DNA from: Streptacidiphilus carbonis
GTDB taxonomy: Bacteria; Actinomycetota; Actinomycetes; Streptomycetales; Streptomycetaceae
Direction of reading: 5' to 3'
DNA length: 52,794 bases
Assembly: GCF_000787775.1 (NCBI RefSeq)
Contig: NZ_BBPM01000001.1
Location: 1-52,794, forward strand
Shown: positions 9,830 to 36,906 of the stretch, in pieces
Numbering within the stretch: the first letter of the stretch is position 1
How the letters are laid out: each line of letters opens with the position of its first letter
Notes under the pieces: generated by a model
What the model saw: only the letters and a program-made list of their open reading frames with translations
The model's database searches: none
What the model was told of the DNA's origin: nothing
Made by a program: the position numbers and the translations under genes

Positions 9830-10810
9830 CGAACTGCGGTTCGCGTCCCAGCACGCGAGCAGGTGCGACGCCAGGCGGTCCTCCACCAGAGCGGCGGCCG
9901 CCAGACCGAAGGCGATGTCGGCCTCCAGCGCGGGCTCGTCCTCCAGCAGCGCCCCGATGACGCCGTGTCGTACGACCTGCTCGTGGACCGCGTCCGCTTC
10001 CACGTGCTCGCGGTAGAAGGCGGTCCCGGCGCTGCCCGCGCCCAGCCCCTCCAGCGCCGTGGCCAGGCGCTCGGACCCCGGCGAGGAAGTGATCTCCACG
10101 GCGGCGAACTGTCCCACCAGAGCGCCGCGGAGCGCGCGGTGCAGACCGAACAGCGACATCAGGTTCACCACGGCCAGCGCCGGGGCCGGCGTGAGTGGCA
10201 GGTAGCGGCCGTAGGACGGGTCCAGATCCAGGTCGGCCATCATGTCCGCGAACAGCCGGGAGTGCACCCGCTCGGGGTGTCCGGCACCGTACTCGTCGTA
10301 CTCGATCGCGACCAGTGCCGCCTGCGCCGCCCCGTGCAGCCGGGGTATGGCCCAGGCCTGCGGGTCGGCCTCCTTGAGGTGGTAGAGGGAGCGTTGGACC
10401 AGGTACTCGCGCGCCTGCCAGCGCTGTCCGCGTTCAAGCAGGTGGTACGAGGGCCCGGTGCCGTGAACAGGCTCGATCAACAGCGCCTCCAACTGGTCGT
10501 CCAGGCTCGGTACGGTGCCCAGCGCGTCGCGGACCGCATCCAGGAACCCCTGCTCCAACGGGCGGCGCAGCTCCAGGACCCGCGGATCCCACTCCGTCTC
10601 GGGGTCCACCTCCTGGAATCCCCGGTAGTGCAGCTCGTAGCACAGGTAGAGGGCGAGTTGGACGTCTTCGCCCCAGGCGTCGTGAGCGCCGGCCGGCGCG
10701 GCACCTGCTCGGACCGGGGTGTCGGGCCCGGACCGGAGAAGGTCGACCAGCTGACCGCTGAGCGGGCCGCGCGCCGGCGGCAGCTGGGGAAGAACGGCTG
10801 CTGTACCCAT
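9773..10810 (-). CDS. Iron-containing redox enzyme, heme-oxygenase-like diiron oxidase (HDO) family
   Basis: The 345-residue protein matches the iron-containing redox enzyme group. LALYLCYELHYRGFQEVDPETEWDP (about 53-77) gives an E-L-H-Y helix, ALVAIEYDEYGAGHPERVHSRLF (about 172-194) gives the E-x-x-x-x-G-x-G...H helix, and AFYREHVEADAVHEQVVRHGV near residue 265 gives the E-H...D...H helix. These are the ligand positions used by the diiron oxidases UndA, SznF and CADD, which oxidise amino-acid or fatty-acid derived substrates with O2. The ATG at 10808-10810 follows CTGGAG. It lies 31 bases downstream of a dimethylargininase-type gene in the same operon, which suggests an arginine-related substrate (inference). 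Confidence 0.85.
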   Translation of the reverse strand: MGTAAVLPQLPPARGPLSGQLVDLLRSGPDTPVRAGAAPAGAHDAWGEDVQLALYLCYELHYRGFQEVDPETEWDPRVLELRRPLEQGFLDAVRDALGTVPSLDDQLEALLIEPVHGTGPSYHLLERGQRWQAREYLVQRSLYHLKEADPQAWAIPRLHGAAQAALVAIEYDEYGAGHPERVHSRLFADMMADLDLDPSYGRYLPLTPAPALAVVNLMSLFGLHRALRGALVGQFAAVEITSSPGSERLATALEGLGAGSAGTAFYREHVEADAVHEQVVRHGVIGALLEDEPALEADIAFGLAAAALVEDRLASHLLACWDANRSSLLAPLRDAPRGVGSGRGR

Positions 10811-10841
10811 GATGAGTGGACTCCAGGGGGAAGCACGGTTG

Positions 10842-11735
10842 CTAGGGCGAATCGGGGCCCGGGCGCGTCGGCTCGCCGCCCGAGGGATTGAGGGTTTTGG
10901 AGCCGGCGGCACGGCGCAGGTTCAGGGTGCAGCACTTGGGGCCGCCTCCCGCCTTCATGAGCTCGTCGACGTTCACTGAGACCGGTTCGTAGCCGCGTTC
11001 CTTGAGGCGCACGGCGAGTCCGGCGGCTGCTGTGGGAAGGACCACGTGGTATCCGTCGCTGATCGCGTTCATCCCGAAGGCGACGGCGTCCTGTTCGTCG
11101 GCCAGCAGCGCCTGCGGAAACAGGTGCTCCAATGTGGCGCGGCTGCGGGGGCTGAAGGCGTCCGGGTAGTACATGACCTGGTCCGGTCCCAGGACCGTCA
11201 GCGCGGTGTCCAAGTGGTAGAACCTGGGGTCGATCAGGGTCAGGTTCACCACCTGCCTTCGCAGGTAGTCGGCCGTCTCCGGCTGGGATTCGGTCTCGGT
11301 TCGAAAGCCGCTGCCGGCCAGGATGATGTCACCCACCAGCAGGTGGTCCCCCTCACCCTCGTTGATCCGGGCCGCCCGACGTACCTGGTCGAAGCCGACC
11401 GCGTCGAACCAGGCCTGGAAGACGGCGGACTCCGGGGCGCGCTGCCGGTGGCGGAAGGCGGCCACCAGCACCCGCCCCTCCACCACCGTGGCGGCATTCG
11501 CTGCGAACACCATGTCGGGCAGCCCCGGTACGGGTTCCACCAGGTCCACCACATGGCCCAGGGCCCGCAGCACCCGGCAGAGCTCCTGCCACTGTGACAG
11601 GGCGGCAGTGGCATCGGTCGGCCGGGACGGGTCCATCCACGGATTGATCGCATAGTCCACCGCGAAGTACTCGGGCGGACACATCGCATAGTGCTGCGGT
11701 CGGGCTGTTCTACGGCGTCTCACCTCAGCGGGCAC
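10842..11735 (-). CDS. Dimethylargininase / amidinotransferase-fold hydrolase
   Basis: The 297-residue product has the guanidine-modifying (pentein) fold. CPPEYFAVDYAINPWMD at the N-terminus, GLPDMVFAANAATV near residue 72, EGDHLLVGDIILAGSGFRT, YHLDTALTVLGPD with the catalytic His, and GGGPKCCTLNL with the catalytic Cys near the C-terminus are all present. This is the pattern of N-omega,N-omega-dimethylarginine dimethylaminohydrolase-like proteins, which form citrulline-type products through a Cys-thiouronium intermediate; ornithine or arginine deimination is an alternative. It is the upstream gene of a two-gene leftward operon with the diiron oxidase. Its start (ATG 11733-11735) lacks a strong ribosome-binding site. 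Confidence 0.85.
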   Translation of the reverse strand: MPAEVRRRRTARPQHYAMCPPEYFAVDYAINPWMDPSRPTDATAALSQWQELCRVLRALGHVVDLVEPVPGLPDMVFAANAATVVEGRVLVAAFRHRQRAPESAVFQAWFDAVGFDQVRRAARINEGEGDHLLVGDIILAGSGFRTETESQPETADYLRRQVVNLTLIDPRFYHLDTALTVLGPDQVMYYPDAFSPRSRATLEHLFPQALLADEQDAVAFGMNAISDGYHVVLPTAAAGLAVRLKERGYEPVSVNVDELMKAGGGPKCCTLNLRRAAGSKTLNPSGGEPTRPGPDSP

Positions 11736-20981: not shown

Positions 20982-21605
20982 TCACGTGGTGAGGCGGGCG
21001 AAGGCGACGATGTTGCCGAGGTAGCGGTGGGTGGCGGAGTCGTAGCCGTTGCCGCAGGTGATGAGGCTGAGTTCCGGGGCGCTGGAGAGGGAGTAGACCT
21101 GGCCGGTGGGGAAGGCGCTGTCGGTGTAGGCCGCGATGCGGGTGACGGTGAAGACAGCGGTGCTGCCGTCCTGGCGGTCGATGAGGATGTGATCGCCGGG
21201 GCGGAGTTGGCCGAGGCGGTAGAGGACGGCGCGGCCGGTGGGGGTGTCGACGTGTCCGAGCAGGACGGTGGTGCCGGAGGCGCCCGGGGCGGGTGAGTAG
21301 CGGTACCAGCCGATCCGGTCAGCCTGGCGGTAGGACGGCACGGCGATCTGGCCGTCGGCGGCCAGGCCGAGGACGGTGGTCAGGGCGTCGACACCGATCG
21401 CGGGGATGCGGACGCGTTCGGGGGCTGAGGCGGGCAGCGGCCCGCGTCCGTCGACGGAACGGGCCAGGGCCGCGGAGGGGGGCGGCTGAGGGGCCGTCTG
21501 GAGGCCGCCGTGGGCGGCCATCCAGATCAGCAGCGCGCCCACCGCTCCGACGAGCAGAGCGTTATGGCGCTTGCGGCGCTGCGGGTCGTCAGTGGGCGCG
21601 GCCAT
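20982..21605 (-). CDS. Class F sortase
   Basis: The 207-residue protein has one N-terminal membrane anchor (NALLVGAVGALLIWMAAHG), a Pro/Ser-rich linker and a sortase domain. RIPAIGVDALTTVLGLAADGQIAVP starts the beta-barrel, TVLLGHVDT carries the catalytic His, and LSLITCGNGYD the catalytic Cys, followed by an Arg in THRYLGN. This is the actinobacterial class F arrangement with a Cys-Gly after the active site. It would cut and transfer surface proteins at the outer membrane face. The start overlaps the end of the upstream Ser-rich protein gene by 17 bases; the two form an operon, which suggests they work on the same surface structure. Confidence 0.92.
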   Translation of the reverse strand: MAAPTDDPQRRKRHNALLVGAVGALLIWMAAHGGLQTAPQPPPSAALARSVDGRGPLPASAPERVRIPAIGVDALTTVLGLAADGQIAVPSYRQADRIGWYRYSPAPGASGTTVLLGHVDTPTGRAVLYRLGQLRPGDHILIDRQDGSTAVFTVTRIAAYTDSAFPTGQVYSLSSAPELSLITCGNGYDSATHRYLGNIVAFARLTT

Positions 21606-24129: not shown

Positions 24130-24292
24130 GGGCAGGACGCAACCGCAACCTGAGATCTCTACCGAACTCGGAGGGGGTCACGCCGAGGCGTTGGCGAAAT
24201 AGTCCTGATCGGTCGGCAACCTTTCGGCGTCGTGCGGCAACTGGTCGGTGAAAGGCGTGGGTGAGCGCGGTCAGCTCGCCACGCCGAAGCAC
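24130..24292 (-). pseudogene. Possible remnant of an AraC-type HTH tail
   Basis: On the minus strand, a frame from about 24292 contains DRSGLFRQRLGVTPSEF, the common ending of AraC-family HTH domains (second helix, then G-V-T-P-S-x-F). No DNA-binding first helix or sensor domain is recognisable upstream, and the frame continues into arginine-rich non-coding sequence. I treat it as a degraded fragment; a chance match is possible. Confidence 0.3.
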
Positions 24293-24320
24293 TCACACAC
24301 TCCGATCGGGAGCCGATACC

Positions 24321-26132
24321 GTGTCACCTGACGACCCGACACCAGCCGCGCAGATGGTGCCCCGGGGCCGCACACATCGTCGCAGCCGTCTCCGCCGCCG
24401 CATCGTGGCGGGCACAGTTGCGTCTCTGCTGGCCGCGGCCGGCGCGAGCGCGTTGGCGCTCGCGGCGAGCGCCGAGCCGTCCGTCGCCATCAACGTCGAC
24501 GCCGGCACCTCACTGGGCACAGTGCCCCGCGGCGGTGTCGGCCTCAACACGGCCGTCTACGATCCGAACATGACCGATGCCACCGCGTCGTCCCTGATCA
24601 AGGCCGCCGGCATCCGCGAGTTGCGCTACCCCGGCGGCTCCGTCGCGGACGGCTACCACTGGCAGACCCACACGTTCAGCGGCGGCGGCAGCTGGGCGGC
24701 GCCCGGCACCGATTTCGACCACTTCATGGCCATGACCAAGAAGATCGGCGCCCAGCCCATCCTGACCGCGAACTACGGTTCCGGTACCCCGCAGGAGGCC
24801 GCCGCCTGGGTCAAGTACGCCAACGTGGACAAGCACTACGGGGTCAAGTACTGGGAGATCGGCAACGAGGTCTACGGCAACGGCCACTACGGCAACGGCT
24901 GGGAGGGCGACACCCACGCCGACAAGAGTCCGACGGAGTACGCGCACAACCTGGTCGCCTACGCGAAGGCGATGAAGGCCGTGGACCCGACGGTGAAGAT
25001 CGGCGCGGTGCTCACCACGCCGGGTGGTTTCCCGGACGGGGTGACCGCTCCCGGCGACAGCGCCGACTGGAACCACACGGTGCTCTCCATCGCGGGGTCC
25101 TCCATCGACTTCGTCATCGTCCACTCGTACCCGGGCGGCAAGACCACGGCCGACCTGCTCAGGACTCCCGCCCAGGCCGCCGGTGTCACGTCCGCCCTGC
25201 GCTCGCTGATCGCCGCCTACGCGGGTTCGCACGCCGCTTCGGTGGAGATCACAGTCACGGAGACCGATGGCGACTTCTCGCCTGCCAAGACCAGCCAGGC
25301 GGCGGCCCTGTACGCGCCGGACGCCTACATGAGCTGGCTCGAGCACGGCATCGTCAACGTCGACTGGTGGGACCTGCACAGCGGCATGGGCACTGCCCCC
25401 AGCACCGTCGACGGCCAGACCGACTACCACGACGAGGGCGTGCTCTCCAGCGGGAGCTGCGTCGGCGGCCAGTGCGAGCCGGCGCGTGAGACGCCCTTCC
25501 CCACCTATTGGGGCATCCGCTCGCTGACCGCGCTGGCCCAACCCGGCGACACCATGGTCAAGGCCACTTCGGGCAACCCCTCGGTCGCCGTGCACGCGGT
25601 GCGCAGCGCCAACGGCGGCCTGAACGTCATGCTGATCAACAAGGACCCGCGCAACGCGGCCCAGGTGTCGCTGTCCTACGCCGGGTACACCCCGGCCGCG
25701 GGTTCGGTCACCACCGTTTCGTACGCCCAGGGCGGCACCCGACTGGTCTCGGCGGCCAGGGGCACGGCGGCTGCGCAGTCGCTGCCGCCGTACTCGATCA
25801 CCACTCTGCAGCTGAAGCCCGCCTCGGCCGCCACCGGTTCCAACACCCCGTCCTCCGTCGCCACCGCCGGCGCCGGTGCGGCGAGCCCCGGCTCGCCGGG
25901 CACGGCCGCACCGGTGGCCTCAGCCTCCGGCACGATCGGTACCCGGGCGCAGGCGTCCGCGGCCGGTGTGCCCGCTGAGTCCCCGGCGACGGCGAGTACC
26001 GCCGGAGGCCTGGCCTCCACGGGTATGAGCAACGCGGTCGTCTACAGCGCCGTCGCCGGCCTGCTGGCCGTCTGCACCGGCGGCGTCCTGGTGCGCCGCG
26101 GACGCCGCCGTAAGGCCGCCCACGGCCGATGA
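24321..26132 (+). CDS. Secreted clan GH-A-like glycoside hydrolase with LASTG wall anchor
   Basis: The 603-residue protein has an N-terminal signal (RRRIVAGTVASLLAAAGASALALAASAEP) and a catalytic domain of about 430 residues resembling GH51/GH39-type arabinofuranosidases. LRYPGGSVADGYHW, YWEIGNEVYG with Asn182-Glu183 as likely acid/base, and ITVTETDGDF with Glu314 as likely nucleophile are visible. A beta-domain (ITTLQLKP) and an Ala/Ser/Thr linker follow. The C-terminus is a sorting signal: LASTG at 564-568, a hydrophobic span (VYSAVAGLLAVCTGGVLV) and RRGRRRK. LAxTG is the class E sortase motif. GTG 24321 follows GGGAG. It is convergent with the sugar operon and probably releases sugars for it. 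Confidence 0.85.
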   Translation: MSPDDPTPAAQMVPRGRTHRRSRLRRRIVAGTVASLLAAAGASALALAASAEPSVAINVDAGTSLGTVPRGGVGLNTAVYDPNMTDATASSLIKAAGIRELRYPGGSVADGYHWQTHTFSGGGSWAAPGTDFDHFMAMTKKIGAQPILTANYGSGTPQEAAAWVKYANVDKHYGVKYWEIGNEVYGNGHYGNGWEGDTHADKSPTEYAHNLVAYAKAMKAVDPTVKIGAVLTTPGGFPDGVTAPGDSADWNHTVLSIAGSSIDFVIVHSYPGGKTTADLLRTPAQAAGVTSALRSLIAAYAGSHAASVEITVTETDGDFSPAKTSQAAALYAPDAYMSWLEHGIVNVDWWDLHSGMGTAPSTVDGQTDYHDEGVLSSGSCVGGQCEPARETPFPTYWGIRSLTALAQPGDTMVKATSGNPSVAVHAVRSANGGLNVMLINKDPRNAAQVSLSYAGYTPAAGSVTTVSYAQGGTRLVSAARGTAAAQSLPPYSITTLQLKPASAATGSNTPSSVATAGAGAASPGSPGTAAPVASASGTIGTRAQASAAGVPAESPATASTAGGLASTGMSNAVVYSAVAGLLAVCTGGVLVRRGRRRKAAHGR

Positions 26133-26228: not shown

Positions 26229-26567
26229 TCAGGACTGCGGCGGCTCGGCGAGGTGCCAGACCTCGGGGATGTCGGACCAGCGGCTGCCGGCCGGGGCGTC
26301 GGGCCAGGGCTCCTGGCAGGGGTCGGTGAAGGTCCACCAGCGCTGGGACTCGGGGTCGGCCTTGATGGTGGCGAGGTCGGCCTCGAAGTCGTCGCCGTGG
26401 TACTCGTAGTAGGCGAACAGGGTGTCGCCGTGCAGGAAGATGCTGTAGTTGCGGATCTGCGCGGCGTGCAGGGCGGCCTCAACGGCCGGCCAGACGGCGC
26501 GGTGCAGGGCGAGGTACTCCTCGCGGTGCTCCGGGCGCAGCCGGGTGGTCTGGGCGATGCGCTTCAT
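26229..26567 (-). CDS. rhaM: L-rhamnose mutarotase family protein
   Basis: The 112-residue product is a single RhaM-type alpha/beta-barrel: RIAQTTRLRPEHREEYLALHRAVWPAVEAALHAAQIRNYSIFLHGDTLFAYYEYHGDDFEADL, then QRWWTFTDPCQEPWP. The H-x-x-x-W, I-F-L-x-G-D-x-L-F-x-Y-Y-E-Y and Q-R-W-W blocks are typical. The enzyme interconverts alpha and beta anomers of L-rhamnose; related proteins act on L-fucose. It is the last gene of the leftward sugar operon, and its ATG overlaps the amidohydrolase TGA (ATGA). Confidence 0.92.
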   Translation of the reverse strand: MKRIAQTTRLRPEHREEYLALHRAVWPAVEAALHAAQIRNYSIFLHGDTLFAYYEYHGDDFEADLATIKADPESQRWWTFTDPCQEPWPDAPAGSRWSDIPEVWHLAEPPQS

Positions 26568-27454
26568 CGTGCTTCCTTTCGTGCCGGGTCGGTTCCCTGG
26601 GCCGGGGAAGGGGCGAGCCGGTACACGCGTTCCGCGTTGCCGCGCAGTACCGCCTCGCCGGGGGTCCGCGCGTAGCGGGCGAGCGCCTCCTGGACCAGGT
26701 CCAGCCAGGAGCGGTAGTCGGTGGCGAGCCGCATCACCGGCCAGTCGCTGCCGAACAGGCAGCGGTCGGGACCGAACGCGTCGAGCGCTTCGTGCAGCAG
26801 TGAGAGCGCGAACGCGGGCGGGGTGTCCGGCCCCAGTTCGGTGGCCAGGCCGGAGAGTTTGCAGACCACGTTCGGCTGCTCCGCCACCTGGCGCAGGTCC
26901 TGGGACCAGGCGCCGCGGGCGTCCGGACGGGGTTTGCCGAGGTGGTCCAGGACGATCGTGGTCTGCGCGCAGGCGGCGGCCAGGCGCGCCAGCTCGGGGA
27001 GTTGGTGGTATCGGACGCAGGCGTCGAACGGCAGGCCCGCGTCGCCGAGCAGCCGGATGCCGTCGCGCAGGTGCGTGTCCTCGGTGAAGCCGGGTGCCTC
27101 GTCCTGGATGTTGCGGCGCACTCCGACGACGAACGGGTCGGCCGCGTACCTGCGGATCGCCTCGCCGGCCTCGGCGGGGCGATCGAGCGGGATGTGGGCA
27201 ACGGCGCCGCGGATCCAGGGGTGGCGTGCGGCTTGACTGCGGACCCACTCGATCTCGTCCGCGGCGTGCGTCTCGTCCCGTCCGGCCTCCATGAAGACCA
27301 TTTCCACGGCCTCGGGACGGACGAGGGCGAAGTCGTCGGCGGTGAAGGGCCGGTTGAGTTCGGGAGACCCCTCCAGCCACGGGTAGGCGAGGTGCCGCGG
27401 ATCCCACAGGTGGACGTGGCAGTCGAGGATCGAGGGCGTTGCGGGGCCGGTCAT
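26564..27454 (-). CDS. Amidohydrolase family lactonase (L-fuconolactonase-like)
   Basis: The 296-residue protein is an amidohydrolase-2 TIM barrel. ILDCHVHLWDPRHLAYPWLEG at the N-terminus (H-x-H), GVRRNIQDE near residue 106, IVLDHLGKP near residue 170 and LFGSDWPV near residue 245 (final Asp) mark the metal site. The H-L-W-D-P-x-x-L-x-Y-P-W-L start is typical of L-fucono- and L-rhamnono-lactonases and of 2-pyrone-4,6-dicarboxylate lactonase. Next to a mutarotase and an aldose dehydrogenase, it most likely opens a sugar 1,5-lactone. Both its start and stop overlap neighbours by ATGA, so translation is coupled on both sides. Confidence 0.9.
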   Translation of the reverse strand: MTGPATPSILDCHVHLWDPRHLAYPWLEGSPELNRPFTADDFALVRPEAVEMVFMEAGRDETHAADEIEWVRSQAARHPWIRGAVAHIPLDRPAEAGEAIRRYAADPFVVGVRRNIQDEAPGFTEDTHLRDGIRLLGDAGLPFDACVRYHQLPELARLAAACAQTTIVLDHLGKPRPDARGAWSQDLRQVAEQPNVVCKLSGLATELGPDTPPAFALSLLHEALDAFGPDRCLFGSDWPVMRLATDYRSWLDLVQEALARYARTPGEAVLRGNAERVYRLAPSPAQGTDPARKEAR

Positions 27455-29394
27455 CGCGATCCCCCTGCGCTCGGACCGTCGGACGGCTGGTCGAACGGGG
27501 TGCGGTAGGAGGCGGGGCGGGTGCGCAGGTCCAGTTGGAGGGTGAGTCGTATCCGGGTCGAGTGGGGGAGGAGGACGGTCAGCCAGGGCCCGTCCACCGT
27601 GTGGGCTTCGGAGGTCTCCTCGACCGGTTCGGTGTGGCCGTAGTCGTAGAGGTCGCCGATCCAGGCGTCGTCGCGGCTGCGGGTGTGGCGGACGCTGCGG
27701 ATGGTGTGCTCCGCGAACGCGCCCGCCTGGACGATCAGTGTGCGGTCCTCGGTCGGATCGAGGTTCACCAGCTCCACCACCGTCGCCTGCGGGTCGATGC
27801 TGGAGACCAGGGCCGCGACGGACGGCGGCAGGCCGGGGCGGCGGGAGTCGGCGTCGTAGTAGCGGACCCGGGCCTGCTGCAGCCCGCCGTTGTAGAGGAC
27901 CTGCGGACCGCCCCAGGTCAGCTGCACCAGCGCTTCGGTGACCACCGGGTTCGACAGCTGCCACAGGTGGATGTCGGCCTCGGCGACCTCCAGGCCGCGG
28001 TAGCGCTCCATCCGCCGCAGGCGGTGCCGCACCTGGGCCTGGGCGGTGGCGAGGATGCGCTCGGGGTAGTCCGGGTCGTCGCCGCTGAGGAACGCGAACC
28101 AGCCCTCCTCGTGGTGCGCCTCCTCCTTGCTGCGGAACGGCCGCAGCGTGCGCCAGTCGATCCCGCTCGCCTCGCGCAGCCGCTCGATGCGGGCGCGGTC
28201 GGCCTGCTGGGCGGTGTGGTGCCACAGGGCGACGGGCACCGGCAGGGTCATCGGGTTGTAGTCGAACCAGCCCTCGTCGCCGCGCCGGAACGGGACGTGC
28301 AGGGTGGGCGTGTGCACGTCCTCGCGCAACTGCGCGACCCACTTGGACCGGAGGCTGGAGTCGGACTCGGCGAACGGCATCATCTTGCCGTGGGCGAACA
28401 TCTCGTCGAGTGCGGGACGCACCAGGTCCAGGTAGGAGTCGTCGCCGGTGGCCTCGGCCGCGGCCAGGGCGGCCACCGTGGCCGCGTGTCCGACGCTGTG
28501 CCAGCCGTGCGGCCAGTTCCAGCCGTAGTGGCCTCCGTACGGGCGCCCTTCCAGCAGTCCGCCGACGGTGCCGTCGGGGGCGACGTTGTCCGGCAGCACG
28601 CCGCCGGCCGCCGCGGCGCGCTCGCGCCACGCGCCGACGTACTCGGCGATCCAGTCCCGGTAGCGGGCGTCGCCGGAGAGGATCAGTGCGTTGAGAACGA
28701 GTCCGCTGGCGGCGAGGTTGACCGCGGTGTCGCCCTGGCCCATGCGCCGGCGCATCTCCTCGCCCAGGCGCGGATCGCTCTCCAGCGGGGGATTCTCCCC
28801 GTCGGCGAGGATCCAGTCGAGGGGGAAGCCGTACATCCGGGCTTCCTGCGGCAGCCAGGGGTAGGAGTCGCCGTCGGCGAGGCCGGTGCGCTCGGGGTCG
28901 CTGCCGTTGTGCGGGCGGGTGATGATGCGGTGCTCGGGGTCGTAGTTGCCGTGTGCCGGGTCGACGTAGAGCTCGGCGAACCGCAGGGCCCGCCCGGTCC
29001 AGCGCTCCGGGGCGGCCATGCACAGGAAGTAGAAGAGCAGCAGGCTCTCGCTCTGGTGGAACCAGTCGTAGCCGCGCTCGTACTCGTCCTTGAGCATGCC
29101 CAGCTCGGTGAGCTGACGGGTCACGCCCTCCCAGTGGAGCTCGGACTGCGCCAGCAGGTCGTCCGCGCCGCCGAGCAGGTACAGCTGCGGCCAGTTGAAG
29201 AAGGTCTCGTAGAAGTCGTCCGCGCCGTCGCGCGTGGTCAGCCGCCCCTCGTAGTTCAGGCGTCCGTCGGGCCCGGTGAAGTCGCGGGCGAAGCGCCGCC
29301 AGACCTGGTCGAGCAGGTCGAACAGCTGGCGCTGCGCCGTCGCCCAGCCCGGCGGTTCGAGCAGTGGTACCGAGGCCGTGATGACGGGGTCCAT
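27451..29394 (-). CDS. Uncharacterised 647-residue protein of the sugar operon
   Basis: I do not recognise a named family. It has no signal peptide or membrane span, so it is probably cytoplasmic. Residues 1 to about 500 are helix-rich with repeated Trp/Tyr/His/Gly motifs (FFNWPQLYLLGG, GYDWFHQSESLLLFYFLCMA, GGHYGWNWPHGWHSVGHAA, EGWFDYNPMTLPVPVALWHH), recalling an (alpha/alpha) toroid as in many glycoside hydrolases and polysaccharide lyases. The last 130 residues (VVELVNLDPTEDRTLIVQAGAF, GPWLTVLLPHSTRIRLTLQLD) read as a beta-sandwich. CGGAGAA precedes the ATG at 29392-29394, and its stop overlaps the lactonase start by ATGA. Its place between transporter and lactonase suggests it acts on the imported oligosaccharide or sugar. 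Confidence 0.7.
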   Translation of the reverse strand: MDPVITASVPLLEPPGWATAQRQLFDLLDQVWRRFARDFTGPDGRLNYEGRLTTRDGADDFYETFFNWPQLYLLGGADDLLAQSELHWEGVTRQLTELGMLKDEYERGYDWFHQSESLLLFYFLCMAAPERWTGRALRFAELYVDPAHGNYDPEHRIITRPHNGSDPERTGLADGDSYPWLPQEARMYGFPLDWILADGENPPLESDPRLGEEMRRRMGQGDTAVNLAASGLVLNALILSGDARYRDWIAEYVGAWRERAAAAGGVLPDNVAPDGTVGGLLEGRPYGGHYGWNWPHGWHSVGHAATVAALAAAEATGDDSYLDLVRPALDEMFAHGKMMPFAESDSSLRSKWVAQLREDVHTPTLHVPFRRGDEGWFDYNPMTLPVPVALWHHTAQQADRARIERLREASGIDWRTLRPFRSKEEAHHEEGWFAFLSGDDPDYPERILATAQAQVRHRLRRMERYRGLEVAEADIHLWQLSNPVVTEALVQLTWGGPQVLYNGGLQQARVRYYDADSRRPGLPPSVAALVSSIDPQATVVELVNLDPTEDRTLIVQAGAFAEHTIRSVRHTRSRDDAWIGDLYDYGHTEPVEETSEAHTVDGPWLTVLLPHSTRIRLTLQLDLRTRPASYRTPFDQPSDGPSAGGSR

Positions 29395-29505
29395 GGGGCG
29401 GTTCTCCGTTTCGAGCAGTGCGGCACCCGCGCCCGGCGGCGGTGCCGCGGGCGTAGTGACGCGATGGGGACGTGTCGTGGTGACGTGCCGCGCGGTGGCG
29501 GTCGC

Positions 29506-30444
29506 TCAGTCCTTGGTGGCGCCGGCCAGCATCCCGGCGATCAGGAAGCGCTGGGAGAAGAGGAAGACCACGAGCACGGGGGTGATGGCCAGCAGGGTGG
29601 CGAGGGCGAGCTCCGGCCGTTGGACGGCGAGCGAACCCACCGTCGGGTTGAACTGCGGCACGTCGTCCAGCAGGGTGCCGAGGCCCACCTGGACCGGGAA
29701 CTGGTTGCTCTGCGGCAGCAGCACGTACGGCAGGAAGTAGTTGGTCCAGTTGGCGACGAAGCTGAAGAAGCCCACGAGCGCCACGACGGGTGTGGCCAGC
29801 GGCAGCGCGATGCGGCGGAAGGTGCCGAACTCCGAACAGCCGTCGAGGCGGGCGGCCTCCAGCAGGGACCTGGGGATGGCCGTGCTGAAGTAGATGTAGG
29901 CCAGGTAGACCCCGAAGGGGTAGAACGAGTAGGGCAGGATGACCGACCACATCGAGCCGATCAGGTGTACCGCGTTCATCTCCAGGAACAGCGGGACCAC
30001 GAGCGTGGCGCTGGGCATCAGCATGACCACGAGCGTCGCCACCAGCAGGGTGTGCCGGCCGCGGAACTCGGTCAGGGCCAGGGCGTAGCCGGCCGGGACG
30101 ACCACCACGAGGGTGATGACGAGCGCGAGGAAGGTGTAGAGCGCGGAGTTGCGCAACCACAGCATGACTGTGTCGCCCTGGTACCCCGTCAGCGCGTCCC
30201 AGTTGGCCCGCAGCGCGTGCCAGGAGCCGAACGAGAGCGGGTTGGCGTGCACGAGCTGGTCGTCGGTCTTCGTCGCCGCCAGCAGCAGCCAGATCACCGG
30301 TAGCACGAAGAAGACCGCGAAGAGCAGCAGCACCAGGGCGGGCAGCGGGTTCTTCGAGCGACGCCGTGCGCGTCGGGGCCGCTCACGGCGTGCCCCGGGC
30401 GGCGCGGGGGCGGACGGCGCGGGGGTGCGGTAGTCAGTCGACAT
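29506..30444 (-). CDS. CUT1 ABC transporter permease (MalG-like)
   Basis: The 312-residue product has a basic, Pro-rich N-terminus of about 35 residues and six membrane spans (PLPALVLLLFAVFFVLPVIWLLLAA; FLALVITLVVVVPAGYALAL; LLVATLVVMLMPSATLVVPLF; and three more). SLLEAARLDGCSEFGTFRRIALPLATP near residue 210 is the EAA loop that docks the ATPase. Such carriers import mono- or oligosaccharides. It overlaps the partner permease by 11 bases. No ATPase gene is in the operon, as is usual for Streptomyces sugar carriers that share the MsiK ATPase encoded elsewhere. Confidence 0.93.
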   Translation of the reverse strand: MSTDYRTPAPSAPAPPGARRERPRRARRRSKNPLPALVLLLFAVFFVLPVIWLLLAATKTDDQLVHANPLSFGSWHALRANWDALTGYQGDTVMLWLRNSALYTFLALVITLVVVVPAGYALALTEFRGRHTLLVATLVVMLMPSATLVVPLFLEMNAVHLIGSMWSVILPYSFYPFGVYLAYIYFSTAIPRSLLEAARLDGCSEFGTFRRIALPLATPVVALVGFFSFVANWTNYFLPYVLLPQSNQFPVQVGLGTLLDDVPQFNPTVGSLAVQRPELALATLLAITPVLVVFLFSQRFLIAGMLAGATKD

Positions 30445-31348
30445 CGAAGAACCCCGATCTGGAGACGAACACCGCGGCGGCGACGAGTCCGAGCAGGAGC
30501 AGTTCGACCGAGACGGAAGCGGCCGTGTTGACGTTGTTGTTCTGGAAGGCGAAGTCGTAGGAGAGCTGGTTGGGCGAGTAGTCCCGCCCCGCCACTCCGA
30601 CGCTCGCCTGCGAGAGCAACTGCGGCTCGACGAACAGCTGCGTGCCCCCGGCGAAGGCGAGGATGCACATGTAGACGATCCACTTGCGCAGCATCGGGAT
30701 CTGGATGCGCCGAGCGGTCTGCCAGGCGCCGGCGCCGTCGATGCGTGCGGCCTCCAGGATGTCCGTCGAGATGTTGTTGAGCGCGCCGTACATCACCAGG
30801 ATCCAGCCTCCCGCGCCGGTCCAGAACGCGATCAGGGTGAACAGGAGCGGCAGCCCGCCGGGGGCGACCACCTGGTCGAAGGTGGCCAGGCCCAGCGCGC
30901 GCAGCAGGAAGGCGACCGGACTGACCGTCGGGTCGAGGACGAACAGCCACACCATGACGCTCGCGGCCCCGGCCAGCGCCCCGGGGATGTAGAACAGGAA
31001 CCGCAGGGCCTTGCTGACGCGCCGGGACGCGAGGCGGTGCAGCAGCAGCGCCAGGCCGATGACGAGGACCACCAGGGAGAGCAGCCAGAGCACGAGGTAG
31101 AGCGCCACGTGTCCGACGGCCGGCAGGAAGCGGAAGTCGGCCGCCGCGTCGGTGAAGTTGGAGAACCCGGCGAAGGTGTTGCCGGCGTTGGTGAAGGCGA
31201 AGTAGATCGCGTAGCCGGTGGGGACGACCCCGAAGGCGATCAGGAGTGCGACGTAGAGGGCGACGAAGCCGTGCCCGGCCCGGCCGGGCCAGAGCGTGCG
31301 CCGCGTGGCGCGCTCCGACTCGGCCCGGTTGCGTGCGGAGATGCTCAC
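30434..31348 (-). CDS. CUT1 ABC transporter permease (MalF-like)
   Basis: The 304-residue protein has about six membrane spans, beginning GFVALYVALLIAFGVVPTGYAIYFAF, and an EAA loop ISTDILEAARIDGAGAWQTARRIQIPML near residue 200. The large segment after the first span and FIPG-type FYIPGALAGAASVMVWLFVLDP are typical of MalF partners. The GTG start at 31346-31348 overlaps the TGA of the solute-binding protein gene (GTGA), so translation is coupled. It pairs with the 29506 permease to form the channel. Confidence 0.92.
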   Translation of the reverse strand: MSISARNRAESERATRRTLWPGRAGHGFVALYVALLIAFGVVPTGYAIYFAFTNAGNTFAGFSNFTDAAADFRFLPAVGHVALYLVLWLLSLVVLVIGLALLLHRLASRRVSKALRFLFYIPGALAGAASVMVWLFVLDPTVSPVAFLLRALGLATFDQVVAPGGLPLLFTLIAFWTGAGGWILVMYGALNNISTDILEAARIDGAGAWQTARRIQIPMLRKWIVYMCILAFAGGTQLFVEPQLLSQASVGVAGRDYSPNQLSYDFAFQNNNVNTAASVSVELLLLGLVAAAVFVSRSGFFDVD

Positions 31349-32715
31349 TGGCTGACCTTGTATCCGTCGGACTTGGCGTAGTTCGCGATCGAGGTCTGCC
31401 AGGCGGGGAGCAGCGAGACGATGCTCTTGCCCGCCGTCATGCGCGGGGTGACGGTCGCCGCCCAGATGCTCTCCTGGCTGTACTGGCCGTAGCCCCAGCC
31501 GGGCCAGACCTGGTTCGCGGCGGCTTGCAGCGTCGGGGAGATGTCATTGGCGTAGTACCCGGACGTGCTCTGGGCCGTCAGCCAGGCCTTGGCCGCCGCC
31601 GAGTAGGCCGGGTAGCCGGGGGCGAGCTTGCCCTGGTAGTCGTCGGAGGTCGTCGCCCAGGTCAGGAACGCGGTCGCGGCCTTGAGGTTCTTGCTGTGCG
31701 CGGAGAGCAGCCAGGTGCCGCCGCCGACGTTGCCGACCGAGGGGCTGCTGTCACCGGCCCACTGCGGCATCGGCGCGACCGCGATCCGGCCCTTGGGGGT
31801 CTTGAAGGTGCCCTCGAACAGCGCGCCGCCGAACCAGGACGGGCCGGGCAGCATCAGGACCTTGCTCGCGTCGTTCTTGGCGAAGTCCGTGCTGAACACG
31901 CTGCTGGTGGACATGGTCTTCGCCTTGACGAGGGTGTCCAGCAGCGAGGCCATCCTGGTGCACTGGGCGCTGGTGGTGTTCACCGTGACCGCCTTCGGGC
32001 CGGTGATCTGGTTGGCGCCGCACTTGGCCGCCCACATGTAGATCTCCGGGGCGAAGGTGTCGCCGGCCGAGCCGACGATGTATCCCGGGTGCTCCGTGGC
32101 GACCTTCTGGCCCAGGGCCTGGAACTGCTCCCAGGTGGCCGGCACCTGATAGCCCCACTGCTTCATCAGTGCGGCGTTGTACCACAGCACCGTCTGCGAC
32201 AGGTCGTTGCGCAGGCAGTAGACCGTCCCGTCGACGGTGCACGGCGCGTTGGCGCCGGTCGCCCACCCGTCCAGGGTGGACTGCGGTATCAGTCCCTTGT
32301 TCAGCGGAGCGGCGAACTTGGACTGGACGGCCCAGGTGGTCTCGTTGTTCTGGGAGCTGAAGACCACGTCCGGCCAGCCGCTGCCGGTGCGGTTGAAGAG
32401 GCTGACCTTGGTCTGCAGGTAGTTCGAGCCGTTGGCGTCCCCGTCGTAGGTGACGATCTTCATCTTCACCTGGGGGTTCTGCTGCTGGTACAGCTTCGCC
32501 GCGGCCAGTCGGGTCGCGTCCACCCACACGGTGATGGGGCCGTCGCCCTGAGCCGCGGGCTTGAAGCTGGCGGTCCCGCCCGCGGTCCCGCCGGAGCCCC
32601 CGCCGCAGGCGGTGGCGGCGCCGAGAGTGAGAGCGACCATCGCGGTGGCGAGAGTGGCGCGTGCGCGGCCGCTGTGCTCTCTGTTCGCGCCGGCCGCTGG
32701 GGATGTGCGTGTCAT
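31345..32715 (-). CDS. CUT1 extracellular solute-binding lipoprotein
   Basis: The 456-residue product has a signal peptide ending in a lipobox-like ATAC (ATLATAMVALTLGAATACGGGS) and a Gly/Ser linker. The family-1 sugar-binding fold follows: ITVWVDATRLAAAKLYQQQNPQVKMKIVTYDG, GWPDVVFSSQNNETTWAVQSKFAAPLNKGL, RNDLSQTVLWYNAALMKQWGYQVPATWEQFQALGQKV and MLPGPSWFGGALFEG. It would capture the sugar at the outer membrane face for the two permeases. The ligand cannot be read from sequence; the neighbours suggest an L-rhamnose, L-fucose or uronate-containing saccharide. GTGGAG precedes the ATG at 32713-32715. It is the first gene of the leftward operon. Confidence 0.93.
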   Translation of the reverse strand: MTRTSPAAGANREHSGRARATLATAMVALTLGAATACGGGSGGTAGGTASFKPAAQGDGPITVWVDATRLAAAKLYQQQNPQVKMKIVTYDGDANGSNYLQTKVSLFNRTGSGWPDVVFSSQNNETTWAVQSKFAAPLNKGLIPQSTLDGWATGANAPCTVDGTVYCLRNDLSQTVLWYNAALMKQWGYQVPATWEQFQALGQKVATEHPGYIVGSAGDTFAPEIYMWAAKCGANQITGPKAVTVNTTSAQCTRMASLLDTLVKAKTMSTSSVFSTDFAKNDASKVLMLPGPSWFGGALFEGTFKTPKGRIAVAPMPQWAGDSSPSVGNVGGGTWLLSAHSKNLKAATAFLTWATTSDDYQGKLAPGYPAYSAAAKAWLTAQSTSGYYANDISPTLQAAANQVWPGWGYGQYSQESIWAATVTPRMTAGKSIVSLLPAWQTSIANYAKSDGYKVSQ

Positions 32716-33060: not shown

Positions 33061-33891
33061 ATGCTGAACGTGGCCCAGGCAGAGGAGGAACACCCGGTGG
33101 ACGGCGCGCCAGCAGAGACGGCATCGGACCCGCGACCGGGTGAGCCGGTGACGAACGGCGCCCCCTACCGGCCCGGTTACGAGGTCGTCGCCGAGCAGAT
33201 CCTCAAGCTCATCGCCGAGCGGCAGCTGCGACCGGGCGACCGGATGCCGACGGAGCACGAGCTGGGCTCGTCGCTCGGCACCAGCAGGACGGTCGTGCGC
33301 GAGGCGGTGAAGATCCTCTCGGCCATCGGCCGGGTCAGTGCCCAGAAGGGCCGTGGTCTCTACGTCGCGGACGACGAGGGCATGCTCGGCGCCTCGCGCT
33401 GGGGCGGGTTCTTCATGCCGACCGACCTCGACCAGATCTTCATGCTCTTCGAGTTCCGCCGGGTGCAGGAGACGGCCGCCAGCCGACTCGCCGCGACCCG
33501 CGCGACCCCGGCAGAGCTGAGAGCGATCAAGGACGCCATGGACCTCTGCCGCCACGGGCACGAGAGCGGCCGCGACCGGCTCTTCGACGAGGGCGACGAC
33601 GCCTTCCACCTCGGCATCGCCGAGGCCTCGCACAACCCGTTCCTCGTCGCCTCCGTCCGCGAGGCCCGGCGGCTGCAGCGGCAGGCCAGCACCATCGGCA
33701 TGCACGGGGCGGTCGGCGACCACGCCAGGGACGCGGTCGCCGAGCACGCCGCCATCTACGGCGCGATCCGCGACGGCGACCCGGAGGCGGCGGCGGAGGC
33801 GACGTGCGTGCACCTGGACAAGACCCTTGAGGAGTACCGGCGCGAGATCCAGCGCCGCGTGTTCGGCTCGGGCACGTCCGAACAGCGCTGA
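33061..33891 (+). CDS. FadR/GntR family transcriptional regulator
   Basis: The 276-residue protein has an acidic N-terminal extension of about 40 residues, a winged HTH (YEVVAEQILKLIAERQLRPGDRMPTEHELGSSLGTSRTVVREAVKILSAIGRVSAQKGRGLYV) and a FadR-type FCD domain. The FCD domain shows FEFRRVQETAASRLAA, DEGDDAFHLGIAEASHNPFLV and DHARDAVAEHAAIYGAI, with Asp and His positions that bind a metal and sugar acid in this group. It probably senses a pathway intermediate such as a sugar acid and represses the divergent transporter operon and the downstream dehydrogenase genes. GGAGGG precedes the ATG. Confidence 0.93.
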   Translation: MLNVAQAEEEHPVDGAPAETASDPRPGEPVTNGAPYRPGYEVVAEQILKLIAERQLRPGDRMPTEHELGSSLGTSRTVVREAVKILSAIGRVSAQKGRGLYVADDEGMLGASRWGGFFMPTDLDQIFMLFEFRRVQETAASRLAATRATPAELRAIKDAMDLCRHGHESGRDRLFDEGDDAFHLGIAEASHNPFLVASVREARRLQRQASTIGMHGAVGDHARDAVAEHAAIYGAIRDGDPEAAAEATCVHLDKTLEEYRREIQRRVFGSGTSEQR

Positions 33892-34038: not shown

Positions 34039-35085
34039 ATGAGTACTTTCGCGGTCTCCTACACCGCCGCCCGGACCCTGACCGCAGGGTCCGCCGACAC
34101 GGCCCCGCCCGGCCCGGGCGAGGTCGAGATCCAACCCGCCTACGTCGGTATCTGCGGCACCGACCTGCACATCTTCCACGGACACATGGACGCGCGCGTC
34201 AAGACGCCCGCCGTGCTCGGCCACGAGATGTCCGGCCGGGTCCTGCGGGTCGGGCCCGGAGTCCGGGCCTGGCAGCCGGGCGACGCCGTCACCGTGATGC
34301 CGCTGCGCTGGGACGGCACCTGCCCGGCCTGCCGCCGGGGCCACCAGCACGTCTGCCAGAACCTGGACTTCATCGGCATCGACTCGCCGGGCGCCATGCA
34401 GTTGCGCTGGACCGTCCCGGCCGAGACGCTCGTCGCCCTGCCGCCCGGCCTCCCACTGGACGAAGCCGCCCTGGTCGAGCCGACCGCCGTGGCGGTGCAC
34501 GACGTCGCGCGCGCCCAGGTGACCGACGGGGAGAAGGTGGTGGTTGTCGGCGGCGGCCCCGTCGGTGTCCTGATCGCGCTCGTCGCCCGGGCGGCGGGAG
34601 CCGACGTGCGGGTGGTCGAACTGTCCTCCAGCAGGCGGCGGATGGCCGGCGGACTCGGCCTGACCGCCTGGGACCCGGTCGCCGACGACGTCCCCGCGCT
34701 GGTGTCCGCCTGGACCGAGGACGCAGGTGCGGATGTCGCTTTCGAGGTCTCCGGTGCGGCGGCCGGAGTCACGACCGCCGTGGACGTGCTGGCGGTGCGC
34801 GGCCGGCTGTGCCAGGTGGCCATCCACCCCGTGCCCCGCGAGGTGAACCTGCACCGCTTCTTCTGGCGCGAGATCACCCTGGTCGGCGCGCGTCTGTACG
34901 ACCGGGACGACTTCGAGAAGGCCGTGGCCCTGGTGGCCGACGGCACGATCCCCGTCAAGTCGCTGATCTCCTCGGTGGTGCCGCTGACCGAGGCGACCGC
35001 CGCCTTCGAGGCGCTGGAAGGCCGCGCCGACGTCATGAAGATCCTGCTGGACTGCTCAGCCGCGGCGGCCGGGGGTGCGGAGTGA
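34039..35085 (+). CDS. Zinc-dependent sugar/alcohol dehydrogenase (MDR)
   Basis: The 348-residue product has the catalytic-zinc motifs GICGTDLHIFHG and GHEMSG, a Glu in LVEPTAVAVHDVA and the NAD-binding VVVVGGGPVGVLIALVARAAGADV. The structural-zinc loop reads W-D-G-T-C-P-A-C-R-R-G-H-Q-H-V-C: three Cys with Asp at the first position, so the second zinc is either held by C3D or weak. Relatives include L-idonate, sorbitol and L-threonine dehydrogenases. With the lactonase and KduD-like enzymes next to it, oxidation of a sugar alcohol or sugar acid is likely. Its stop overlaps the KduD-like start by GTGA. Confidence 0.88.
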   Translation: MSTFAVSYTAARTLTAGSADTAPPGPGEVEIQPAYVGICGTDLHIFHGHMDARVKTPAVLGHEMSGRVLRVGPGVRAWQPGDAVTVMPLRWDGTCPACRRGHQHVCQNLDFIGIDSPGAMQLRWTVPAETLVALPPGLPLDEAALVEPTAVAVHDVARAQVTDGEKVVVVGGGPVGVLIALVARAAGADVRVVELSSSRRRMAGGLGLTAWDPVADDVPALVSAWTEDAGADVAFEVSGAAAGVTTAVDVLAVRGRLCQVAIHPVPREVNLHRFFWREITLVGARLYDRDDFEKAVALVADGTIPVKSLISSVVPLTEATAAFEALEGRADVMKILLDCSAAAAGGAE

Positions 35086-35843
35086 ACGCCTTCGATCTCA
35101 CCGGCAAGCTGGCCGTGGTCACCGGCGCCAGCCGGGGCATCGGCCGCGCGATGGCCCGCGCTCTGGCCGAGGCCGGCGCCGACGTGGTCGGCGTCAGCGC
35201 CAACCTGGAGGAGAGCGGCAGCGACGTCGAGAAGGACGTCACCGCGGCGGGACGGTCCTTCGAGGCGATCCGGGCCGACTTCGCCGACCCGGCGGCCGTC
35301 GCAGCCCTGGGCCGCGAGTTGGCCGAGCGGACCCGGCCGGTCGACATCCTGGTCAACAACGCCGGCACCATCCGGCGCGCCCCGGCCGCCGACCATCCCG
35401 CCGCGGACTGGGACCTGGTGCTCCAGGTCAACCTCACCGCCCAGTTCGCCCTCGCCCAGGCGGTCGGCGCGGCCATGGTCCGCCGCGGCCACGGAAAGGT
35501 CATCTTCACGGCCTCGCTGCTGAGCTTCCAGGGCGGCATCACCGTGCCCGGCTACACCGCCGCCAAGCACGGCGTCGCCGGTCTCACCAAAGCCCTCGCG
35601 AACGAGTGGGCCGGCTGCGGCGTGAACGTCAACGCGATCGCCCCCGGCTACATCGCCACCGACAACACCCAGGCACTGCAGGACGATCCGGCACGCAGCG
35701 CCGCCATCCTCGACCGCATCCCGGCGGCGCGCTGGGGCGCCGCCCAGGACCTCGCCGGGGCCACCGTCTTCCTGGCCTCACCCGCGTCCGACTACGTCCA
35801 CGGCATCGTGCTGCCCGTGGACGGCGGATGGCTGGGCCGATGA
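35082..35843 (+). CDS. kduD: KduD-like 2-keto-3-deoxy-sugar-acid dehydrogenase (SDR)
   Basis: The 253-residue protein is a classical SDR closely resembling KduD. FDLTGKLAVVTGASRGIGRAMA at the start, ILVNNAGTIRRAPAADHP, ASLLSFQGGITVPGYTAAKHGV and NVNAIAPGYIATDNTQAL match KduD along their length, as does the ending RIPAARWG ... FLASPASDYVHG ... VDGGW. KduD interconverts 2-keto-3-deoxy-gluconate and its 5-keto form; in this locus a related enzyme could oxidise 2-keto-3-deoxy-L-rhamnonate or L-fuconate. Start GTG 35082 overlaps the previous stop. The gene symbol reflects similarity, not proven substrate. Confidence 0.88.
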   Translation: MNAFDLTGKLAVVTGASRGIGRAMARALAEAGADVVGVSANLEESGSDVEKDVTAAGRSFEAIRADFADPAAVAALGRELAERTRPVDILVNNAGTIRRAPAADHPAADWDLVLQVNLTAQFALAQAVGAAMVRRGHGKVIFTASLLSFQGGITVPGYTAAKHGVAGLTKALANEWAGCGVNVNAIAPGYIATDNTQALQDDPARSAAILDRIPAARWGAAQDLAGATVFLASPASDYVHGIVLPVDGGWLGR

Positions 35844-35898: not shown

Positions 35899-36906
35899 AT
35901 GCGGACCACCACGCTCGGGCGCAGCGACGTCGCCATCAGCGAACTCGCCTTCGGCGCCGCCGCGATCGGCAACCTCTTCGCAGCAGTCACGGACGAGGAG
36001 GCGCTGGCCGCGGTCGACGCCGCCTGGGACTCCGGCGTCCGGTACTTCGACACCGCACCCCACTACGGACTGGGTCTGTCCGAACGGCGCCTGGGCGCGG
36101 CGCTGGCCGACCGCCCGCGCGAGCAGTTCACCGTCTCCACCAAGGTGGGTCGCCTGTTGCGCCCAAAGGACGCACCGGTCGGCAGCGACCTCGTCGACGG
36201 TTTCGACGTCCCGGACACGCACGAGCGGGTGTGGGACTTCAGCGCCACCGGCGTGCGCCGGGGCATCGAGGAAAGCCTCGTCCGGATGGGCCTGGACCGG
36301 ATCGACATCGTCTACCTGCACGATCCCGACCACCACGAGGAGCAGGCCTTCGGCTCCGCCTACCCGGAGCTGGAGCGCCTGCGTGCCGAGGGCGTGGTCG
36401 GCGCGATCGGTGCGGGCATGAACCAGACCCGGATGCTGGACCGCTTCGTGCGGGAGACCGACGTCGACGTGGTGCTGCTGGCCGGCCGCTACTCGCTGCT
36501 GGACCAGAGCGGCCTCGCTTCGCTGCTCCCGGAGGCCGCCCGTCGCGGCGTCTCCGTAGTGGTCGGCGGCGTCTTCAACTCCGGTCTGCTGGCCGACCCC
36601 AAGCCCGCCGCCACGTTCGACTACGCCCCGGTGCCCGCCGACGTCCTGGAGCGCGCCCTGCGCCTCAAGGCGCTGTGCGAGGGAACCGGCGTGCCGCTAC
36701 GGGCCGCTGCCCTGCAGTTCCCGCTCGGCCACCCCGCCGTCGCAGGTGTGCTGGTGGGGGCGCGCAGCGCGGTCGAGGCCCGCGACGCTGCGGCGATGGC
36801 CGAGCTGGACGTCCCGGCGCAACTGTGGCGCACCCTGCGCACCGAAGGCCTGCTGCCCCGGGATGTCCCGCTGCCGACCGCCGCCCGGACGAACGCTGGG
36901 TCCTGA
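35899..36906 (+). CDS. Aldo/keto reductase, L-fucose / D-threo-aldose dehydrogenase type
   Basis: The 335-residue product is an AKR barrel. TTTLGRSDVAISELAFGAAAIGNL starts it, VRYFDTAPHYGLGLSERRLG carries Asp and Tyr, TVSTKVGR the Lys, and IVYLHDPDHH the His of the catalytic tetrad. MGLDRIDIVYLHDPD and IGAGMNQTRMLDRFV are typical of L-fucose (D-threo-aldose) 1-dehydrogenases, which oxidise the C1 of L-fucose, L-galactose or D-arabinose to the lactone. That product is the substrate of the lactonase at 26564, so the two form consecutive steps. The ATG at 35899 is preserved by family start; an ATG about 12 codons earlier is possible. Confidence 0.9.
   Translation: MRTTTLGRSDVAISELAFGAAAIGNLFAAVTDEEALAAVDAAWDSGVRYFDTAPHYGLGLSERRLGAALADRPREQFTVSTKVGRLLRPKDAPVGSDLVDGFDVPDTHERVWDFSATGVRRGIEESLVRMGLDRIDIVYLHDPDHHEEQAFGSAYPELERLRAEGVVGAIGAGMNQTRMLDRFVRETDVDVVLLAGRYSLLDQSGLASLLPEAARRGVSVVVGGVFNSGLLADPKPAATFDYAPVPADVLERALRLKALCEGTGVPLRAAALQFPLGHPAVAGVLVGARSAVEARDAAAMAELDVPAQLWRTLRTEGLLPRDVPLPTAARTNAGS

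Follow-up and report, generated by a model that had tools for sequence, protein, structure and literature searches.

Which enzyme is encoded at positions 27451..29394 of a stretch of Streptacidiphilus carbonis DNA (the first 52,794 nucleotides of contig NZ_BBPM01000001.1, referred to here as the window), and on which sugar does it act? The gene, here called X, encodes 647 residues on the minus strand and lies between the permease genes of an ABC transporter and a sugar lactonase gene, which it overlaps by ATGA, an arrangement described in the initial annotation and confirmed, together with the strand, by the coordinates of the open reading frames (ORFs). We found that X is a real gene encoding a conserved enzyme of no family identified, and that the product most likely acts in the cytosol as a glycosidase on a glycoside of L-galactose or L-fucose. 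Our more specific proposal, put forward tentatively, is that X represents a new family of cytosolic exo-glycosidases and releases L-galactose from an imported oligosaccharide in a predicted toroid pocket.

A longer GC-rich ORF on the plus strand runs across X (27439-30303) and was rejected as spurious, since among aligned relatives of three phyla it is the protein of the minus strand that is conserved. One scan of genome contigs gave 86 confirmed stretches, 80 of which were kept as relatives: 55 from Actinomycetota (L002-L056), 2 from SAR202/Chloroflexi and 23 from Poribacteria. Identity to X is 73-92% in Actinomycetota, plus two loci at 55 and 57%, 37% in SAR202 and 35-37% in Poribacteria, with two Streptacidiphilus loci 92% identical. 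By model searches of genomes, which score part of the first-look candidates so that the tallies are lower bounds, X was found in at least 44 of the 297 genomes searched from the window's family (taken as Streptomycetaceae on the basis of the 92% identity just given); these include the source genome and at least 3 others among the 14 listed for its genus. It was also found in at least 1 of 198 genomes sampled over the phylum, this being the source genome itself. A second copy occurs in some genomes (e.g. G249, G262 and G326), and at G304:C1:7239567-7240827 the match to X is split into two separate parts, one of which contains an in-frame TGA, probably a decayed copy.

That no family could be named for the protein was borne out by Pfam, NCBIfam and PDB sequence searches, in which no established family of known substrate was clearly matched. 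X had no Pfam match at E<=0.1, which includes the models PF07944 (GH127), PF03663 (GH76), PF22124 (GH95), PF07221 (AGE) and PF07470 (GH88), and no NCBIfam match at E<=1; when 37 family members were compared with Pfam, seven unrelated families appeared in 1-3 members each, all sub-threshold (best E 0.031). PDB sequence searches with X and with a 37-row profile gave no plausible relative, and matches at E 0.009-1.4 to a solute-binding protein, ribonucleotide reductases and a short-chain dehydrogenase/reductase (SDR), all over partial stretches, were taken as chance. A literature search gave no description of the X family among the matches listed.

Profiles were compared in local mode with hhalign, using five decoy families drawn from the same loci and profiles built from 16 of 25 fetched loci for GH127, 6 of 14 for AGE, 6 of 10 for GH76 and 20 of 20 for GH95; GH88 had 0 members over cut-off in the 60 genomes scanned and hence no comparison with X. 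The decoys reached E 0.022-0.79 against the X profile. GH127 (E 0.11) fell inside this range and GH76 (E 0.25) at decoy level, and AGE (E 0.014 over 26-30 residues) was marginally ahead of the best decoy and not significant. GH95 gave E 0.27, and it likewise failed to align with GH127, AGE and GH76, leaving no working control. Among the other toroids, controls gave 7.2e-5 for GH127/AGE, 6.5e-4 for GH76/AGE and only 0.023 for GH127/GH76; hhalign therefore misses some toroid links, and the negative result is weak evidence of distance. Measured against Pfam, NCBIfam and the PDB sequences covered by these searches, the X family is new, and it may fit a CAZy family that has no Pfam counterpart.

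The toroid-like body and C-terminal beta-sandwich read initially from the sequence were recovered by structure prediction. In the AlphaFold2 model of X (mean predicted local distance difference test score, pLDDT, 82.7; predicted template modelling score, pTM, 0.89), an (alpha/alpha) toroid, the first helix of which starts at residue 16, spans residues ~16-500 and is followed by a beta-sandwich at ~510-622, and the AlphaFold model of a Poribacterial relative 38% identical to X (pLDDT 76.4) has the same two parts. The top Foldseek matches of both models were to the GH127 beta-L-arabinofuranosidase HypBA1 (3wkx/3wrg; E 1.7e-4 and 3.5e-4), with TM-scores of only 0.20-0.29 and root-mean-square deviations of 13.6-18.5 in the GH127 rows. 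Many other toroids were tied within 1-2 Z units, and the matches of both models remain fold-level; GH95 was not among the structure matches listed for either model, which excludes nothing. The first reading of X as free of a signal peptide was upheld by a simple hydropathy window, no dedicated predictor being run: no strongly hydrophobic N-terminus was seen in 48 family members, with an N-terminal hydropathy maximum of 1.21 versus 1.72 for the operon's binding protein. An alignment of X with 36 of the 80 relatives contains 102 invariant columns, many of them in blocks 56-68 (DG.DD.YE.F.NW), 108-116 (GYDWFHQ.E), 268-270 (PDN) and 290-297 (YGW..PHG), and D56/D59/D60/E63, D110/H113/E116, D222, D269, H296 and E487, picked by invariance alone, are candidate catalytic residues.

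Comparison with known toroid enzymes places X beside several families and within none. HypBA1 of GH127 resembles X, by its model, in having a toroid followed by a beta-sandwich, but has no sequence or profile relation to it. GH127 carries a cysteine-rich zinc site with a catalytic Cys, and since X holds a single cysteine, a site of this type is not possible. The GH76 and GH47 mannosidases have no Pfam match in X. The GH76 enzyme Aman6 has an adjacent catalytic Asp-Asp pair, and in the alignment X has an invariant D59-D60. Enzymes of the AGE superfamily (cellobiose 2-epimerase, mannose isomerase) use a pair of catalytic histidines, and H113 and H296 are invariant in the X alignment; the listed AGE chains, of ~380-420 residues, leave no room for an X-type sandwich. 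The GH95 alpha-L-galactosidase BACOVA_03438, in the available excerpts of its description, has an (alpha/alpha)6 barrel and releases L-galactose, the function proposed for X, but it has a beta-sandwich at both ends, the N-terminal one being absent from the X model (PMC4491172).

The genes around X in the window, with counts of similar genes in the 55 actinobacterial loci, are given below. These counts were obtained by tblastn and are lower bounds, as several loci end at contig ends.

27451..29394, minus strand: X, 647 codons (647 aa), with the predicted toroid at ~16-500 and beta-sandwich at ~510-622.
31345..32715, minus strand: SBP_bac_1 extracellular solute-binding protein, 456 aa; similar gene in 48/55 loci.
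30434..31348, minus strand: ABC transporter permease A (BPD_transp_1); 48/55 loci.
29506..30444, minus strand: ABC transporter permease B (BPD_transp_1); 49/55 loci.
26564..27454, minus strand: Amidohydro_2 sugar lactonase, L-fucono-1,5-lactonase-like, best PDB match 4dlf; 18/55 loci at >=45% identity.
26229..26567, minus strand: L-rhamnose-mutarotase-like (YiiL) protein, 112 aa, 44.8 bits against a cut-off of 99.6; 17/55 loci.
33061..33891, plus strand: divergent GntR/FCD regulator; 48/55 loci.
34039..35085, plus strand: zinc alcohol dehydrogenase, candidate C5 dehydrogenase of an L-sugar acid; 19/55 loci.
35082..35843, plus strand: KduD-like SDR, 335.9 bits against the TIGR01832 cut-off of 338.85; 16/55 loci.
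35899..36906, plus strand: aldo-keto reductase (AKR), candidate L-sugar 1-dehydrogenase; similar gene (>=45%) in only 3/55 loci.

On the minus strand the order is solute-binding protein, permease A, permease B, X, lactonase and YiiL-type gene, and the lactonase overlaps the YiiL-type gene by ATGA as X overlaps the lactonase. The 111-base gap ahead of X, folded as RNA, is unremarkable (z -0.5). The core of the actinobacterial loci consists of the regulator, the binding protein, the two permeases and X, with each partner found in 48-49 of 55, and at least one of the five oxidation genes of the window (lactonase, YiiL, zinc dehydrogenase, SDR, AKR) is found in 28. As the importer and regulator are near-constant while the oxidation genes vary, X would act next to import; as the lactonase and the L-galactose-dehydrogenase-like AKR follow X on the same strand in the loci that have them (18/55 and 10/55, respectively), X is tied to the L-sugar itself. 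The initial annotation had suggested a glycosidase, lyase or isomerase acting on the imported saccharide. The tie to a sugar importer stands, while the fold allows all three activities; it is the gene context (importer, mutarotase-like protein, AKR, lactonase and secreted glycosidases) that favours a glycosidase over a lyase or isomerase, and that points to a sugar of the L-galactose/L-fucose type rather than to rhamnosides or unsaturated uronides.

Within this type, L-galactose is preferred mainly because an L-galactose-dehydrogenase-like AKR adjoins X and because LguA, a characterized enzyme of this kind, shows no L-fucose activity. This AKR gene immediately follows X in 10 of the 55 loci from Actinomycetota (L005, L007, L010, L024, L025, L031, L040 as a partial match, L048, L055 and L056), and the AKRs of these loci are 67-75% identical to that of L010. 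The L010 protein, the only one compared with PDB, scored 283.7 bits to rice L-galactose dehydrogenase 7ezi and 262-278 bits to four further sequences of L-galactose dehydrogenases, while the best match otherwise named reached 114.7; the class is assigned by similarity. As an approximate base rate for such AKRs, 5 of 198 phylum genomes matched at E<=1e-30 and 0 of 198 above 34% identity; 8 of the 198 genomes come from the window's family and part of the candidates was scored. LguA, from Luteolibacter, was clustered by its authors with the Arabidopsis and Phocaeicola vulgatus L-galactose dehydrogenases, and in the available excerpts of that paper its kcat/Km is 40-fold higher on L-galactose than on L-glucose and no L-fucose activity was detected (PMC12632266).

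In the route that we infer, from hydrolysis by X and its substrate through every later step, the ABC importer would take up a small oligosaccharide or glycoside, and X would hydrolyse it in its (alpha/alpha) toroid pocket to an L-galacto-configured sugar, most likely L-galactose. The YiiL protein would interconvert the anomers of the released sugar, the AKR would oxidise it at C1 to a lactone, and the amidohydrolase lactonase would open the lactone to the aldonate; oxidative routes usually begin in this way, with an L-sugar turned into its lactone and then the aldonate. The aldonate would then become 2-keto-3-deoxy-L-galactonate, probably via an enolase-type fuconate/galactonate dehydratase encoded elsewhere. 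The zinc dehydrogenase would next oxidise C5, and the KduD-like SDR, so assigned at a score slightly short of the cut-off of its model, would reduce C5 again to give 2-keto-3-deoxy-D-gluconate. The fuconate dehydratase FucD accepts L-galactonate as well as L-fuconate. The source genome has seven strong enolase-superfamily matches, and two of the five sequences inspected among them carry what we take to be the FucD signature, whereas the UxaA-type altronate dehydratase (PF20629) had no match in the source genome, with a positive control in 5 of 14 genomes. The proposed passage through 2-keto-3-deoxy-L-galactonate follows from these two results. The known L-galactose pathways of P. vulgatus (BVU_0219, BVU_0222) and Luteolibacter (lgu) share with the X loci the L-galactose-dehydrogenase-like AKR and, in the zinc dehydrogenase near X, a candidate for C5 oxidation, but since PF20629 has no match in the source genome the later steps must differ. 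In the available text of the lgu paper the term glycoside hydrolase is absent (PMC12632266).

Genes for secreted enzymes, which we also count in favour of the proposal, accompany many of the loci. A secreted beta-helix GH141-like protein is found in 31 of 55 actinobacterial loci (query coverage 71-99%, identity 34-76%; a 32nd, L033, was dropped at 19% coverage). It bears a ricin-type lectin domain and matches the GH141 insertion domain weakly (27.6 bits in L039 against a cut-off of 27; 24.0 in L013, under it). GH29 fucosidases are found in 11 loci and GH54-like proteins in 13 at >=88% query coverage, with 14 lower-coverage rows dropped; the presence of GH54, GH27-type, GDSL and PHB-esterase-type domains was verified in individual representatives. 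The substrate could plausibly come from side chains of plant cell walls: in the excerpts available, corn-fibre xylan bears L-galactose, and the alpha-L-galactosidases described for it belong to GH95 (PMC4491172, PMC7176698).

Several observations weigh against the proposal for X. All five oxidation genes are missing from 27 of 55 loci, and the lactonase, YiiL, zinc dehydrogenase and SDR genes are each found in only 16-19. X has no detectable homology to any glycosidase; the putative pocket loops 163-165, 172-178 and 290-296 are under pLDDT 50; and invariant polar residues are not significantly enriched in inner-face segments (30/225) versus outer helices (10/131; Fisher p=0.12). The window's own AKR has L-galactose dehydrogenases as its top PDB matches, yet at only 120.8 bits it falls outside the L-galactose dehydrogenase kind and so makes the substrate call less secure, and the loci closest to the window, L002 and L003, gave no AKR of the window type. 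Nor did the Poribacterial loci (L059-L081) show an L-galactose-dehydrogenase-like gene near X. As a side observation, two AKR subfamilies, ~32% identical, occur near X, one in L012, L051 and L052 and the other in L005, L007, L010 and others. Their presence in different actinobacteria suggests replacement of the first oxidation enzyme.

L-fucose (6-deoxy-L-galactose) fits too, since the lactonase scores best with an L-fucono-lactonase model and fucose is the main known target of GH29 and GH141 enzymes. X would then be an intracellular alpha-L-fucosidase of a new family, which we regard as unlikely. The match of the lactonase to the L-fucono-1,5-lactonase model of NCBIfam, NF052480, is 143.9 bits, under the 400-bit equivalog cut-off, and the counts of GH29 and GH141-like proteins around X, like the placement of the window AKR outside the L-galactose dehydrogenase kind, speak for the same sugar. 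In the source genome, the stretch G000:C102:38000-57900 (L092) holds a GH141-like beta-helix gene, GH54-like, GH29 and other secreted glycosidase-like genes and an enolase gene together, with a ribose-type ABC importer judged by eye. The enolase is presumably FucD-like, by its motif, and shares the stretch with the GH29 and GH141-like genes; the stretch is apparently a separate L-fucose locus. In the excerpts available, GH141 members are described as fucosidases and, recently, endo-fucanases (PMC10154630; PMC12786026). Set against L-fucose are the L-galactose-dehydrogenase-like AKR that adjoins X in the ten loci together with the lack of L-fucose activity in LguA, and the pairing of a KduD-like SDR with a zinc dehydrogenase, which would better suit a C6-hydroxylated sugar acid.

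The loci lacking any window oxidation gene above threshold could also mean that X cleaves another residue, such as the sugar attached to L-galactosyl or L-fucosyl, or an arabinosyl or xylosyl residue, with the oxidation genes serving part of the oligosaccharide. The GH54-like genes of 13 loci and the L-arabinofuranosidase HypBA1 as top Foldseek match agree with this, but the lactonase or L-galactose-dehydrogenase-like AKR that follows X on the same strand argues for the L-sugar as product, and we consider the idea rather unlikely. Still less probable is a non-hydrolytic role for X, as an AGE-like enzyme that isomerises, epimerises or otherwise converts the imported sugar, given that X includes a beta-sandwich at its C-terminus and exceeds the listed AGE chains by ~240 residues, that PF07221 gave no match, and that the profile similarity covers 26-30 residues at an E-value of 0.014 against 0.022 for the best decoy. 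An unsaturated-uronyl hydrolase or lyase (GH88/GH105-like or polysaccharide-lyase-like), with the KduD-like SDR in a uronide pathway, is very improbable, as there is no GH88 Pfam match and aldose dehydrogenase and aldonolactonase genes would be unexpected for a uronide.

Outside Actinomycetota the surroundings of X differ. In both SAR202 loci, which we count as support for the proposal, X lies between an SDR and another protein, followed by an opposite-strand zinc dehydrogenase. The protein directly downstream of X is DUF4432 in L057 (~9904-10989), with a matching gene in L058; we take DUF4432 to be aldose-epimerase-like, and it may act as mutarotase for the sugar released by X. In Poribacteria, where the neighbour counts rest on automatic gene calls that are rough in the relatives, one gene cluster is next downstream of X on the same strand in 12 of 23 loci (in L069 after a small opposite ORF); its member in L076 is Abhydrolase_7/DLH-like, and this alpha/beta hydrolase is perhaps a sugar esterase. 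Further on, an enolase-superfamily gene is found in 8 of 23 loci, scoring best in galactonate/gluconate dehydratase models, below cut-off, and a sulfatase gene in 7 of 23.

The wider form of the L-galactose proposal, which we put forward with more doubt than the release of L-galactose as such, is that X founds a new GH family of cytosolic alpha-L-galactosidases unrelated in sequence to GH95, which is the one family of alpha-L-galactosidases found in the excerpts available. X would serve as the entry enzyme of an unrecognised actinobacterial L-galactose route from plant cell walls, with the Poribacteria and SAR202 relatives acting on marine glycans that contain L-galactose or L-fucose. Here a conserved family with no Pfam or NCBIfam model is encoded next to the importer that would serve a probable L-sugar pathway of soil actinobacteria, and it occurs in two other lineages. 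If X is an alpha-L-galactosidase, it would be a second family for an activity that is described, in the excerpts available, as very uncommon and as aiding the dismantling of corn-fibre glucuronoarabinoxylan (PMC7176698), and the bacterial L-galactose economy would become testable with one protein and few substrates.

Elsewhere in the window, the plus-strand gene at 24261-26132 encodes a probably secreted glycosidase-like protein with sub-cut-off matches to GH79 (E 3e-4) and GH44 (E 0.035). Its C-terminus has an LASTG motif, a hydrophobic stretch and a basic tail, which we take to resemble a sortase anchor. The minus-strand gene at 20982-21605, ~2.7 kb from the gene of this anchored glycosidase-like protein, encodes what is presumably a class E sortase, judging by its resemblance.

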